DNA of 64,000 nucleotides, taken from positions 28,552,175 to 28,616,174 of the forward strand of contig NC_058046.1 in NCBI RefSeq assembly GCF_020085105.1. The letters run 5' to 3'. Shown here in pieces: positions 20,801 to 50,910 of the stretch (its first letter is position 1; every line of letters begins with the position of its first letter). The notes beneath the pieces are model-generated. The model searched no databases, was not told where the DNA came from, and was given only the letters and a program-made list of their open reading frames with translations. The position numbers were made by a program, and so were the translations under genes. The stretch is from Siniperca chuatsi (Eukaryota > Chordata > Actinopteri > Centrarchiformes > Sinipercidae).

Positions 20801-23800
20801 AAACTGTAAAAACTTTGGTGATCCCTTTACATCTAGTGCCATTATCAGGTCAACATTTGTATTTGAGATGGTGACCGTGGTAGACATTTTACCTTCAAAA
20901 CATCAGCATGTTAGCATTGCCATTGTGAGTATGTTAGCATGCTGCTTAGCTGTGCCTAAGTACGGCCTCACAGAGCCACTAGCATGGCTGTAGACTCTTA
21001 CTTTTGTTTAAGGATATTTGACAATTTCAGAAGAAGTTTTTCCATTTCCTGATTACTGATTGTCTTTTAACAGAGTGCCCTGCCCAGTTCTGGGGCCCTG
21101 ATTGCAAGGGGAAATGTAATTGTTACCCCAACGGCCAGTGCGATGACTTGACCGGTGAGTGTACCTGCAACCACAATCGTTGGGGACCTAACTGCGAGAA
21201 TCCTTGCTTATGCCAAAAGGGCAAGTGTGACCAAGAGACCGGCAAATGCACATGTCACCCCGGCGCCTGGGGTCCCCAGTGCAACAACAACTGCTACTGC
21301 AGCATCAACTCCGTCTGCGATTCTATGACAGGGCGATGCATGTGCAATCCCGGTTGGACGGGGAGGAACTGTGCAATCCAGTGTAGCTGTAACAATTCAC
21401 CATGCGACCAGTTCACGGGACGCTGCCAGTGCCGTGAGAGGCTGTGGGGCCCACGGTGTGAACGATACTGCCAGTGCGTCCACGGCAAGTGCAACCAGGC
21501 GGACGGCTCGTGTACCTGCACACCAGGGTACCGTGGGAAGTTCTGCAGGGAACCATGTCCTGCTGGGTTCTATGGTCAAAACTGCAGGAACAGGTGGGGG
21601 AAAAAACTTGGCAGAGAGCAAATATACCATTTCAAAACCACAGGAAACATGCAGTTTTACAGATGCCTAATGTTCAGTTCCCTTGTCTGATCCATATTAT
21701 AGTGCGGTTTTGTGGTTTTGATAGGAAATAAGATTTGATATATGCTGCAGCTGATAGCCCTTAAAATATCTGAACATGTTACTTAATGGAGCAATAACAA
21801 AGTGATATTTGGGAGTTGGTATTCACATTATCCCGTAATCATCAGCCAACATGTAAAAGCAATTCAGGTTAAGTGCTTTACCGTCCATCGACTGTGCCGT
21901 TCTCACACGATACAGTTGCTATAAACCAAAAAGAACACAGTTAGAGTTCAGTATTGTTTATCTTTTTATTTATTTAGAGCCACAATTTAGAGCATACGAA
22001 TAAAGATTCTTTTTATCATGTTTCAGACCCTTAAACAGTTTTAGACCTACTACATTTAGATGAGATGGAGGATTTTTTTGTGTAAACAAGATAAATTAGA
22101 ATTCTGTTTGCCTTGGCTGACCACAGGTGTGGGCACTGCAAGGGCCAGCAGCCCTGTAAGGTGACAGAGGGACGCTGCATCACCTGTGACAGAGGCTGGA
22201 ATGGGACACGGTGTGACCAGCTCTGCTCCAAAGGCTTTTTTGGCGAAAACTGCCAGGAAGTGTGTCCCACCTGCAAAGACGGTCACCACTGCGACCCCAT
22301 TCATGGCAAGTGCTCTCACTGTAACCCTGGCTGGATCGGGGACAGGTAAGAAAACACACACAGTACAACTTGTACAACAATGTGTAAAAGAAACATGCAA
22401 TGTTCATATTGTTCTGTCAGACCCTTTTCTACCCTCCCGTAGAGATTTATAATTTTCAAAGTTAGAAAACATAATGGCAATGCCTTTAACTAGTAGCTAC
22501 TCTAATACCATTTTCTGCCCTGTGATAATGTCTGACTCATACTGTTAAGCTTGAAAATTACTGTAATCATGGCATTCCTTTTGTGTATAATAGGTGCGAG
22601 GTGCGCTGCCCCAACGGCACATATGGCGAGAACTGCGAGAACAACTGCAGTCACTGTTTTAACGGCATCTGTCACGTTGTCACCGGAGAGTGCCTGTGTG
22701 ATCCGGGGTTTTATGGCACCTAGTAAGTCAGAAGACACCTCATAGCCCAAAAACTTATGTTTATGCTCTAGGCAGCTTTACAGTACACAGGGTTTCATAT
22801 TACTTTTGTCACACACTTATATATCTTGGGAATTGAATGAGCGAGCTTGTGTTTTGAGGCATATTTTTACAGATACTGATGAAGAACACTCTTGGAATAG
22901 AAAAATGAAATTCCGACAAACTTCCATCACAAGAAAAACTTTGGAACAAAGAACTGATCCCATTTATCCGTTTTCTCTCTTGCTGTGTCCTATTTTATGC
23001 ATCTGTCACTTGGAATGAACCTTAAACAGATGTTGTTTTTGTCTCTTCTCTGTACTCAAGCTGCAATATGACCTGTCAACCTGGCCAGTATGGAGTGAAC
23101 TGCAACCAAAGCTGCTCTTGCAATGACAAGAACTGTGATCCTGTGTCTGGTGCTTGCTATCTCCGTAAGAAAATCTCTTTTTTTTAAAGAGCAACCACAT
23201 GCTTTGTGGTTATGATGTTTTTAAATGGTTTTCTGTGAACAGCAGTAGTCAGAAACTAGTGTTTTTCTAAATAATGCACCTTTTCAGAGACAAAAAAACT
23301 GTTATTTCTTACTCGTACTACACATACAGAAAGAATTATAACCCTCTGAACTGTTTGTCCAAAGAGCCAGATGCCACTAGTGCTGCCTGTGTATTAAATG
23401 TCTAATAGTTGGCTGTACACACTGAGTACCAACAAACACATCTATTCAGGTTACTGTGTGTAGTGGGAGAGTTAGCATAGCGAGGCCTTGATAGCGTTTC
23501 CAGACCCAGACCGGTGTCCTTTTTATGGCTGTGTTTGTTGGCTATGTTCCTGTCCAGCCAGAGAGAGCGAGAGCGAGAGAGAGAGGAAGGAAGAAATAAA
23601 GAGGGGGGTGGAGAAAATATAAGAGAAAAAAGAAAACTTGGAAGGGAGACAGAGGGAGGCAGAGTAAAAAAGAGAAAAAAGCAGAATGCTTGGAAAGAGG
23701 AGATCACTGGAGGCAGGCAGGGAGATTATTATTGTATAGGGCGCAAAGATAGCAGGGATTTTGGCCAGTGGACATGATGGGCGATGGCAGGTTGGTCAGT

Positions 23801-46052: not shown

Positions 46053-48026
46053 ATGTGGGCCTTCTTGGTGCTCACTCTTGCCCTCGCTGTTAGGGCATCA
46101 GACACTAACAACGACACAGTGATGGAAGAAAAGCTTGTTATAGCCAGAGGTAAACTGATGGTGAGTACAGATAGAAGTCCGCACACACGGATACCATAAT
46201 GACTCCGGATCTCTTGTCATGACCATAAAATGTGCAGGATTGTGTGATATCGGCGCAGAGAACAAGAAAACTTTAAAGGTCTGAAATTAAATAAACACAT
46301 GAAAAGAGGACAGGGGACACAGTATTAGCATTCAACAAGCAAATGGGGAAATGAGTAAGATGAGGGATAAGCCATGTGCTGTCATGTCAGTATGTATTCT
46401 TCTGAGACAGGAAACCTATTTCTGGCACCTTTGATCACACAATGAACAAAGCGTGCACGATGCTATTTGTCATGCTGTCTGTTGTCCCTGCAGGCCCCCA
46501 GTGTCGTCGGATGAGGCATAAAGAAAATGCCGGAGCTCCATCATTTTCTCATGGAGCGCTTAGCTTTATAGTATCCTTGTGCTCTTCTGTTCCTCAGGCT
46601 TTTTGGTAAGACCTGACTTTTCCCAAAAAATACCACAGATTTTCTCATGACCTCTTTCATAAACAAAACAATGTTCCTAGCAAGTTGCCAAGCCCAGTGC
46701 CAGCTCTGTGAGCTTTCCAGAACTCTGCTCTTCCAAGTTGAAATCATGTTGAGTGAGGCTAAAAATAGCAAAACAGATGGATGTGCTTTATTCTTCACTG
46801 CCTACCTGTTGTTTCCCTTGATCCATTCCTTCCTGTGTAGCCACAACTTGGAATATGATTCATCGGAGGAGAAGAATCCACGTCTGATATTCTATAACGA
46901 AAAGGACGAGGTTGTAAAGGTGAGATGTGAGTTCAGGGATCTTTTACTCATCCGCCTTGTGATGGGGCTTATCTAGGGAGAGCCAGAATGTCAAGACAGA
47001 TTCATGAAGGGAAGTTTTAAGACTGCTGCATCTGATTTCAGATCCTCTGTCAGACACCAAGTCAAGACAGAGTGTGTTTGAACGAGCGAGACAGTTACAA
47101 AAAAGACACAAAAAAAACAGATGGCAAGAAAGAGGGAGAGTAAGAAAGAATATAAATTAGGGTTTCTGACAGTTGAACAATATTTTTTGTACTTAAACAG
47201 GATAGTTGGTATGAATGCTGATATGAATTAGAACATTTTTATGCCTTGAAATTACAACTGTTCAGTGTTTCCCACAGACTTTTATTTTTGGAAAAAGCTC
47301 CTGAACCTGCATTTAGGCCAGCATGGGACAATAAAACTCTCCACTAAAACCAGTACTAATGAATTTCTTTAGCGTTAGCCTCTTCAAAATGTACAAGGGC
47401 TCAAAGAGCCACTGCTCTGATTTGAAAGTAAACTGCTCACATGCTTTACTGCTTTCTTGAGGTTTTCACCGTTTATTTGACCTTATAAAGCTTAAGTAGG
47501 AGTTTTTCTTTTGTTACATTCAGAGTCTAATGTTTGTTGTTTTCATTCATTGCTTCATAATGTAGGAGCCCTTTGAGACTGTAATTTGACTTTGAATGAA
47601 GAATTGTTTCAGAGACTAAATTATTGAACAAATAAATGAATACAAATGTGTAGGAGGAACCTCTATATCAGCCAGTGACTGAACAAGTTTTAATAAAAAT
47701 CCAATTTTGGTAAACCAAATTAACGTTTCAACTAACGTGAATCAGAAGACACTGTATGTCTGAAAACACATACTTCTCTGCACACATCTAATTTACACTG
47801 CATCACTGCTTTAAGCCTTTAACCATGTGTCCAAATGCATGTGTGTCTGTACTTGTGTGTGTTTTCCTGCCCGACACGTCAGACTGTTCCCGTGAAGAAA
47901 ATGAAGGCAGACGAGATCAGCAGCCTGTTAGACTCACTTGGTTTCTTCAAGAGGTCCCAAAAAGGGGAAGAGGTGCCAGAGGAGTTCCAGCATTTCCCCC
48001 TGCGCGCCCCCAGGGATGAGCTGTGA
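46053..48026 (+). CDS. selenoe: Fish 15 kDa selenoprotein Fep15 (4 coding exons, Sec encoded by TGA)
   Basis: An ER-lumen, thioredoxin-fold protein of the Sep15/SELENOM family; Fep15 is known only from fish. Exons: 46053-46160, 46494-46570, 46841-46919, 47883-48026. All are GT-AG and phases agree, giving 135 residues. The signal peptide is MWAFLVLTLALAVRA. Exon 2 reads SVVG, then in-frame TGA at 46512-46514 (residue 43, selenocysteine), then GIKKMPELHHF. Exons 2-3 join as RLALYHNLEYD, matching FYHNL of SELENOM. Exon 4 carries ADEISSLLDSLGF, like EINALVQELGF of SELENOM, and ends in RDEL, an ER-retrieval signal. The Sep15 and SELENOM proteins pair Sec with a nearby Cys (CxU, CxxU); here no Cys is present, the reported hallmark of Fep15. 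A standard gene caller would stop at the TGA or skip exon 2. The exact function is unknown. Confidence 0.93.
46512..46514 (+). other. selenoe: Selenocysteine codon (TGA) of selenoe
   Basis: The TGA is inside a well-defined exon, and the frame continues past it through three more junctions to a family-typical C-terminus. With a SECIS element in the 3' UTR it should be recoded as Sec. Confidence 0.92.
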
Positions 48027-48055: not shown

Positions 48056-48139
48056 CACCCCAGCCACATTAATGATGAGTGGGGCCCAAAGGCGAAAACG
48101 ATAAGCCAGACACCATTCTGAGGACTTGCTGGCCGGGTG
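48056..48139 (+). promoter_or_regulatory. selenoe: SECIS element in the selenoe 3' UTR
   Basis: It starts 30 nt after the stop. The lower helix is CACC/CCAGC (48056-48064) with GCTGG and GGTG (48128-48139). The core quartet is ATGAT at 48072-48076 against TGAG at 48119-48122. The next helix pairs GAGTGG (48077-48082) with CCATTC (48113-48118) and continues less perfectly. The conserved unpaired AAA is at 48088-48090, 11 nt after the quartet. A small apical stem GGC/GCC (48091-48093 with 48105-48107) makes it look like a form II SECIS. It should recruit SBP2 and the Sec-specific elongation factor. Confidence 0.88.
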
Positions 48140-48217: not shown

Positions 48218-48223
48218 AATAAA
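48218..48223 (+). terminator. selenoe: selenoe poly(A) signal
   Basis: AATAAA lies 192 nt after the stop and about 80 nt after the SECIS, well placed for a short selenoprotein 3' UTR. Confidence 0.7.
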
Positions 48224-48762: not shown

Positions 48763-48911
48763 ATGGTCCCCAGCTCTACCCACAATGCCTGTGTTTTACT
48801 CACCTGTTCCAGAGAACCTGCAGATGGGTCTGGCCTATATGGGAGGCTCTGTATTCACCAACAACAGGACAGCAGACAGCGACTTCACCAGGGAGCAGGA
48901 GGACACCTCTG
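48763..48911 (+). promoter_or_regulatory. tmem17: Upstream ATG and overlapping frame at the tmem17 start
   Basis: An ATG at 48763 with G at +4 opens a frame shifted from the tmem17 frame. It covers the rest of exon 1 and stops a few codons into exon 2 (GGT CAA TGA). The chosen tmem17 ATG at 48785 is in a plainer context, so leaky scanning may set tmem17 levels, or the mRNA may start downstream of 48763. Confidence 0.4.
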
Positions 48912-50910
48912 GTTGGTTACTGGTTCCACAGACTGTTTACAAGTACAGTGTAGTTTACTGCTGTATAATGGAAGATACCATTTTAGAATATATTATAATA
49001 TAGTATAGTGATAACATACATGGGAAATATGTGATTATGTGTATCTGAAACCAATTCTGATATCATATAACTAATTGTGAGGGGTAGACAAACACTACAC
49101 TACACAAAAACCCCTTTAATGCCGCTTTAAAAAGTCACATGACAAAGTTCGGATTTCCTGACCTCATCTATAGCTGCTTACTGGCACTGAACCGATGATC
49201 AACGTTTGCGGTGCAGGTAACTGTGATTGTGTAAACCTATTTTTGCTCTATATTTTTACGGTGTCTGCAATATACAGACAAGGCGTACCCCTGACATCTA
49301 AATTGTGGGATGTTGTATTCCATGCAACTGTCTGCGATGATGAGTGTTGTGCAAATAAAACATTATTTTTGATTGTGAGTGTGTTCATAATAGTGATTTA
49401 AAGATGTAATGAATACGAGTGTTTATATACTGTGCTCTTGTTATTTGTATTGCAGCGGTCAATGAGTTGGTTTCTCACCTTCCCCTGCAGATGCTACTGT
49501 ACTTCAACATGTTTTATTTTCCCTGTTGGTGGTTTTCTGCTGTTTTCATGTTGGAAGTAAAGGTTAGTTGGTGATCTGCATTTTCACAGACTAGATCCTT
49601 CATGTTTTTATTTGTTCTCAGTTTGGTTCATATTGTTTCCTTTTAGTTCCAGTCTGCTCTGGGTTCACACTGATGTATTATTAAACAGGAACCAGGCATT
49701 GTAAAAATGAACTCACAAGGATTGATAGGTAGCTCATTCATTGGACAGTTTTGATGATCTGTCATGCTGCATCATTAGTGTCAAATGGACAAACATAGAA
49801 CAATCAAAAGGTTTATGCTGGTGACTGAGAGCAATTCATGCTGTATTCCACTTATTAAATCCACTATGCGTCAAATTGGAATACTTTTGACTTTGGCGCC
49901 ATCTAGTGATAGCAGCTAAAATGGCAACCCCCTCAGATCTAACCTGGAAATGAATGGAGTGAAAGCAACACATACAGTAAACTGCACCACTTTTTACTGG
50001 GATTACCCAGTAAAGCCAAATTTATGCCATCAGAATAATTTGAAAGATCTTATAATCACATCATACTTTTATCTGTGGTTTTTAGGCATGTTTGGCCACT
50101 AAACAGCACACTGTCCTGTCCTGTGAGCTGCAAGTTAAAAGGTGTTTTCATACCTTCCTGACATACTAACATCCCAGCTCTGCTTCATTTCCAGTTCTGT
50201 TATCTTCCCGGGTACTACCAGGCTCTGCTCATAACCGGGATGATCCTCCTCACAGTAATTGAAGTGATCCGACTTTATCTGGGCTACATTGGCAACCTTA
50301 AAGAAAAGGTAATTCAAACCAACATCCTCTTTGAAGCCCAACGCAGAGCTCTTTTATGAACCCATCTCCTGAATAACACAGCGGAGGAAGTGGCTGCTTA
50401 AGTATTCTGGCTGCGTGTGTAAACAATCAGCTCTTGGCTACAACTGTCTATTGAGTTTGTGTGTGTGTGTGTGTGTCTGTGCGCGCTTTCATGTGGATAC
50501 AACTGAAGCACTTGATGCCTGACTGCTCTATCTTTGCATCGCCTCCATCCACCAACCCAAGTTCTCCCTCCCTTCCATCCTGTCATCAGATGCCAGAGTT
50601 GGCAGCCTTCTGGCTCCTGTCTTTCATGTTCCAGCTGCCAGTGCTGCTGTTCTTCCTGACCGATGAAGGAATTATCATCCTGCCTTTCGAGAGAGCTGTC
50701 CACTCCCTCTACCTCCTCTTCCTGCTAGCCCAGATCCTGGCCTCCTTCCTGGCACTCAGGACCATGACCCGAAAGCTCACACTGCTCTTCCATCTGCGTC
50801 AGTTTGGCAAGGTGGAGAGCTTCCGCCACGCAGGGATGAGTCCTGTCTACGGGCTGCCCTACCACCGCAGCGTGCTGCCCATGTCACCCACCCGAGATAT
50901 GTACCATTAA
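48785..50910 (+). CDS. tmem17: Transmembrane protein 17, ciliary transition zone (4 coding exons)
   Basis: A four-pass membrane protein of the MKS/tectonic module at the base of cilia, needed for the ciliary diffusion barrier and Hedgehog signalling. Exons: 48785-48911, 49456-49562, 50195-50308, 50590-50910. All are GT-AG, phases agree, and the product is 222 residues (human 198). It matches human TMEM17 through LPLQMLLYFNMFYFP (human LALQMSLYFNTYYFP), IRLYLGYIGNLKEK and PELAAFWLLSFMFQLP. Predicted membrane segments lie near residues 54-77, 86-108, 121-140 and 153-171. The N-terminus is poorly conserved and carries an NRT glycosylation-like site. The ATG at 48785 is the first in frame after the splice-free upstream region. 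The C-terminal tail after the fourth segment differs from human. Fish have tmem17 paralogues; which one this is was not resolved. A GT microsatellite lies in intron 3. Confidence 0.94.
50458..50477. repeat. (GT)n microsatellite in tmem17 intron 3
   Basis: Short pure GT repeat about 110 bp before the exon 4 acceptor. Confidence 0.85.

Follow-up and report, generated by a model that had tools for sequence, protein, structure and literature searches.

Fep15, now named SELENOE, shares a Pfam domain with the selenoproteins SELENOM and SELENOF (Sep15) and is said, in a 2006 abstract by Novoselov, to differ from other members of the family in having only selenocysteine (Sec) at its active site. The literature covered places Fep15 with or nearest SELENOF/Sep15. 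It occurs in elephant shark and has a cysteine (Cys) homologue in frog (PMC3316567), whereas according to another paper tetrapods have lost it and it is confined to fishes (PMC3473315). The present analysis concerns a Fep15 gene at 46053..48026 of a 64,000-nucleotide stretch of the Siniperca chuatsi genome (contig NC_058046.1, positions 28,552,175 to 28,616,174 of the forward strand), referred to as the window and numbered from its first base. Its product lacks the partner Cys of the CXXU motif and contains no Cys at all. The evidence gives about an even chance that it is a relative of SELENOM that has kept the SELENOM fold and Sec and works in the endoplasmic reticulum (ER) through a one-chalcogen cycle resolved by an external thiol.

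Sequence comparison identifies the gene as the known fish selenoprotein, and the earlier naming as Fep15 was borne out by the family profile and by homologues. The product matches Pfam Sep15_SelM (PF08806) with 51.9 bits (cut-off 26, E 7.8e-14). A homologue search returned 98 proteins, including full-length frog records and numerous 88-residue fish records beginning downstream of the Sec codon TGA, and a profile search, represented by the best 120 of 127 matches, added further frogs. One full-length fish relative is 77% identical across 90% of the query; with the 88-residue records, which cover 65% of it, identity rises to as much as 94%. The lone Sec codon is likewise that of Fep15, as are, putatively, the ER-type ends and a selenocysteine insertion sequence (SECIS)-like element; nothing of substance sets the gene apart, and it represents the orthologue in one more fish. 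The preliminary description had called the protein fish-only, which holds for the Sec form and fails for the protein as a whole, given the frog Cys form (PMC3316567).

The coding sequence, spliced from four exons on the + strand, comprises 408 bases and yields 135 residues ending in RDEL, followed by the stop codon TGA. Exon 1 (46053..46160) encodes a putative signal-peptide region, an NDT sequon from residue 20 and, by analogy with a structural model of a Metynnis hypsauchen relative (P0001), most of strand 1. Intron 1 (46161..46493, GT-AG, phase 0) precedes exon 2 (46494..46570), which encodes APSVVGUGIKKMPELHHFLMERLALY, a segment kept in frogs with C for U; its in-frame TGA, positioned from the spliced frame, is codon 43 (46512..46514). 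Intron 2 (46571..46840, phase 2) is of U12 type, with GTATCCTT at its 5' end and a branch-like site, TCCCTTGAT, near its 3' end. Exon 3 (46841..46919; HNLEYDSSEEKNPRLIFYNEKDEVVK) and intron 3 (46920..47882, GT-AG, phase 0) are followed by exon 4 (47883..48026), which supplies the C-terminal part, RDEL and the true stop. The hydrophobic N-terminus and the C-terminal RDEL, an ER retention signal, point to putative ER targeting and retention. The window lies on contig C5 of a 719-Mb assembly. A six-frame search found the four Fep15 exons once and also matched one SELENOM exon, and exon 4 has a single DNA match in the whole genome.

Splicing the four exons confirmed the composition first described: 135 residues, one in-frame TGA, at codon 43, and no Cys, signal peptide included. 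The model was spliced from genomic DNA and might have overlooked an alternative exon 1 or 2 supplying a Cys near the Sec. This is extremely improbable, as the frog and Metynnis proteins read continuously through the same exon 1-exon 2 junction and a fish contig (P0074) runs from exon 1 across a short intron into exon 2 in one stretch. No sign of such an exon appeared in these sequences, and the candidate was dropped.

A chain of 134 residues would lack Cys by chance with a probability of about 0.05-0.07, assuming a Cys frequency of 2-2.25%, and statistical significance for the single chain was accordingly not claimed. The informative point is the recurrence of the lack in relatives. Scoring from the HN motif to DEL was possible for 59 of 130 Fep15 rows and not for the other 71; 53 of the 59 are free of Cys, five have one, all of them from catfish, and one (P0041) has two and looks like intron read-through. 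The catfish Cys (EIC) aligns with residue 101 in P0027, P0030, P0040, P0045, P0055 and P0068, the last from Silurus meridionalis and outside the scored set. Freedom from Cys is thus common in Fep15, judging from these rows, and is not universal. As the extra Cys is confined to catfish among the scored rows, it looks like a gain in that lineage rather than a conserved Cys lost from the window copy. In this protein the signal peptide is indeed devoid of Cys, but the corresponding regions of relatives often contain it.

The preliminary description had also treated the absence of any other Cys as something over and above the missing partner, which was already known; the SELENOM baseline does not support this. 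In SELENOM of this genome (spliced from L007) two Cys occur, the partner in TCGGU and another within the signal-peptide region. From the YHN motif onward, SELENOM is free of Cys in 112 of 114 scorable rows (120 of 322 matches were fetched, six of which lack the motif). The one Cys outside the signal peptide in SELENOM of this genome is the CGGU partner, and its loss leaves a mature chain with none. A lone Sec without a Cys partner is largely expected, not a new anomaly, since relatives are mostly alike in this respect and it follows from kinship with SELENOM.

The state of the site in relatives was read from rows chosen by the motif APSxxGxxIK, which yielded 25 with a readable site. Cys occupies the position aligned with Sec in 23 frog rows, which come from 22 species since one of them contributes two isoforms, and in Metynnis; W stands there in the fish contig P0074, read here as TGA translated as Trp. 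None of the 25 rows has a Cys at the partner position, which, with the restriction of the other Cys to catfish, argues against a conserved Cys that the window copy has lost. All further Cys of the frog and Metynnis rows lie upstream of the ARG motif, in the putative signal-peptide region, and the three of P0074 lie upstream of the Fep15 start. On this alignment the site operates in frogs with a single sulfur and no internal partner. Their Cys at the Sec position, with other Cys only in the signal-peptide region, speaks for reactions between molecules that use a single conserved nucleophile. The lone-Cys forms of frogs also offer a natural comparison of Sec with Cys.

Many fish records, at 88 residues, begin after the TGA, so that the Sec site itself is not readable in them; that of Serrasalmus rhombeus is one such record. 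The Metynnis record, a fish Fep15 with Cys at the Sec site, makes a change from Sec to Cys within fish possible at the level of the protein record. The "hypothetical protein" records of Metynnis and Hymenochirus are probably automatic, and U would not be expected there.

SELENOM and SELENOF of the same genome were compared with the window gene. The former was identified through 2a2p, which it matches at E 5.6e-46, and the latter is taken to be SELENOF from its CGU motif and sequence. Fep15 is identical to SELENOM at 33 of 94 positions and to the single SELENOF sequence compared at 12 of 65. It appears to resemble SELENOM more: two of its three introns match those of SELENOM exactly, one of them of U12 type, and intron 1 is offset by no more than two codons. 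The U12-type intron falls at LY-HN in both genes, in the same codon and phase and with the same 5' motif (window 46571-46840; SELENOM L007 4475-4592), and no intron at LY-HN was seen in the SELENOF exons read from this genome. A case for U12 type from motif counts was rejected: RTATCCTT occurs four times in the window against 4.16 expected, and as the count is at chance level the assignment draws on where precisely the splice falls and on the twin intron of SELENOM. A literature search combining the minor spliceosome with selenoprotein M, judged by title, gave nothing on a U12 intron. Of 18 listed species with both genes, ten have Fep15 and SELENOM contigs of identical length, three have contigs that differ and five are uninformative.

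Several observations weigh against this placement. SELENOM and SELENOF are themselves identical at 26 of 74 positions, the same percentage as Fep15 and SELENOM, and Xenopus Fep15 matches SELENOF at 16 of 54 (z 5.1). In three of the 13 species with long contigs, the Fep15 and SELENOM contigs are unequal. A phmmer alignment with mouse SELENOM puts a two-residue gap before the exon boundary; moved by eye past the boundary, the gap lets intron 1 coincide with that of SELENOM. Gene structure, predicted fold and sequence nevertheless appear to fit the SELENOM branch, with intron 1 agreeing within two codons only.

The window protein is a relative and not a SELENOM, lacking the CXXU motif: SELENOM has CGGU with its partner Cys, whereas Fep15 has Val at the partner position (SVVGU). 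The SELENOM gene also contains an additional intron, its product has a longer C-terminal tail, and the N-terminal sequon occurs in 0 of 54 SELENOM rows. SELENOF has the partner Cys of CXU where the window protein has VGU, its gene sits on another contig (C13), and its Cys-rich UGGT-binding domain, known from published work, has no counterpart in a chain with 0 Cys in 135 residues. Placement beside SELENOM, and not SELENOF, alters the choice of functions that merit testing first.

Taken in another frame, the bases that precede the TGA in some fish encode C-G, as in TGT GGT GGA TGA of SELENOM. It may be, speculatively, that a local frameshift erased the partner Cys. A fuller proposal, tentative and rather doubtful as a whole, is that SELENOE is a linked SELENOM duplicate and not a Sep15 derivative, which lost its single mature-chain Cys, gained an N-terminal N-glycan and became an obligate one-chalcogen ER protein that has to trap partner thiols or glutathione, with frogs retaining the same one-residue chemistry through Cys. 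Were this true, selection against a second thiol would belong to SELENOE function.

With SVVGU and no Cys in the chain there is no internal partner, and the earlier statement that an intramolecular selenenylsulfide cycle is impossible stands. With one selenol and no thiol, the protein can form an Se-S bond only to a second molecule. Having exactly one chalcogen residue removes the ambiguity of an internal partner, so that any Sec-dependent adduct is with another molecule and trapping experiments would read out partners directly. Thiol-disulfide oxidoreductases with internal CXXC or CXXU need two redox residues in one chain where Fep15 has one; monothiol-type oxidoreductases use one chalcogen and an external resolving thiol, putatively the closer analogy. 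In the predicted fold of P0001 (mean predicted local distance difference test score 76.6) the site sits where the helix following strand 1 begins, as is described for SELENOM, which is reported to show glutathione peroxidase activity in vitro (PMC10668967). This geometry and the SELENOM activity make a one-chalcogen cycle, resolved by glutathione or by the thiol of a protein, the favoured inference. Within the lumen of the ER, the selenolate would react with peroxide or a disulfide and then form a mixed Se-S bond, from which an outside thiol (glutathione, a PDI-family protein or a client protein) would release the selenium, by analogy with glutathione peroxidase or monothiol glutaredoxin chemistry.

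A lone Sec could also serve as a reversible lock between subunits. SELENOK, which has an unrelated fold and its Sec near the C-terminus and is not known to contain Cys, gives a precedent for such a protein, and a Fep15 dimer through a Sec diselenide would be SELENOK-like. An intermolecular diselenide of SELENOK, an ER membrane protein, has been published, and SELENOK is said to form dimers (cited in PMC5789314). The frog lone-Cys forms could dimerise as well but give no direct support, and the SELENOK fold, as noted, is unrelated, which leaves dimerisation of Fep15 quite unlikely. Covalent non-redox intermediates of the selenol, acyl or other, are very unlikely: a selenoester has been proposed for SELENOK with DHHC6, again a lone-Sec ER protein (PMC5789314), yet neither an acyltransferase partner nor a supporting feature is seen for Fep15.

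Against the one-chalcogen cycle itself stand several points. Relatives with a changed flank would escape the motif by which the site rows were chosen, and an internal partner may exist in the catfish lineage. The letter U occurs in none of the 251 fetched proteins and the pig SELENOM row P0216 shows C at the Sec site, so that C in some database rows could stand for Sec; the frog Cys form is backed by published work (PMC3316567). No tested biochemical function of Fep15 is reported in the part of the literature covered. Beyond SELENOM and Sep15, the structural neighbours are mostly complex I and mitoribosomal subunits, and a fold of this type can therefore serve without redox chemistry.

These neighbours, together with a strongly conserved C-terminal tail and an N-terminal sequon, suit a Fep15 whose chief role is non-redox, as a binder or adaptor in the handling of ER glycoproteins, its selenol being secondary. 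Such a role is unlikely: Sec is costly to make, and the readable sites have Cys in 24 of 25 rows with the W, read as TGA, in the other. The sequon, at residues 20-22 (46110-46118, + strand), lies near the mature N-terminus, where it predicts an N-glycan. N-X-S/T occurs within 24 residues before (I/V/L)A(R/K)G in 43 of 48 Fep15 rows with exon 1, that of the window counted, against 28% when the same segment is shuffled; the count is no probability, as the rows share ancestry and a species or exon recurs in some of them. A sequon later in the chain also appears in 10 of the 48. The N-terminal sequon is a new detail of this analysis, and no search for it in print was made.

In the 3' untranslated region a SECIS-like element (48063..48133, + strand) has its ATGA, AAA and CTGA motifs in place and matches Rfam RF00031 (SECIS_1) with 20.8 bits in a low-threshold search. 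This is below the gathering score of 35, at which a scan of the window gave no match. The low score says little, since the same low-threshold search lists no SECIS either in 1,702 bases that hold the final exon of SELENOM from this genome and its 3' flank. Minimum-energy folding of the element was uninformative (z -0.29). Published primers for bluefin tuna selenoe mRNA (PMC9854485) match 47949-47968 and 48106-48125 at 19 of 20 bases each; on the window the pair spans 177 bases from exon 4 into the SECIS, an amplicon equal to that of tuna. A polyadenylation signal, AATAAA, follows at 48218..48223 on the + strand.

Further downstream, the reading frame 50455-50907 matches Pfam Transmemb_17. A record from Albula fuses Fep15 exon 4 to sequence resembling that encoded at 48785, a junction which suggests that the neighbourhood 48785-50907 may be old. 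Upstream, the reading frame 21022-21687 encodes EGF-laminin repeats and presumably resembles a SCARF-type scavenger receptor.
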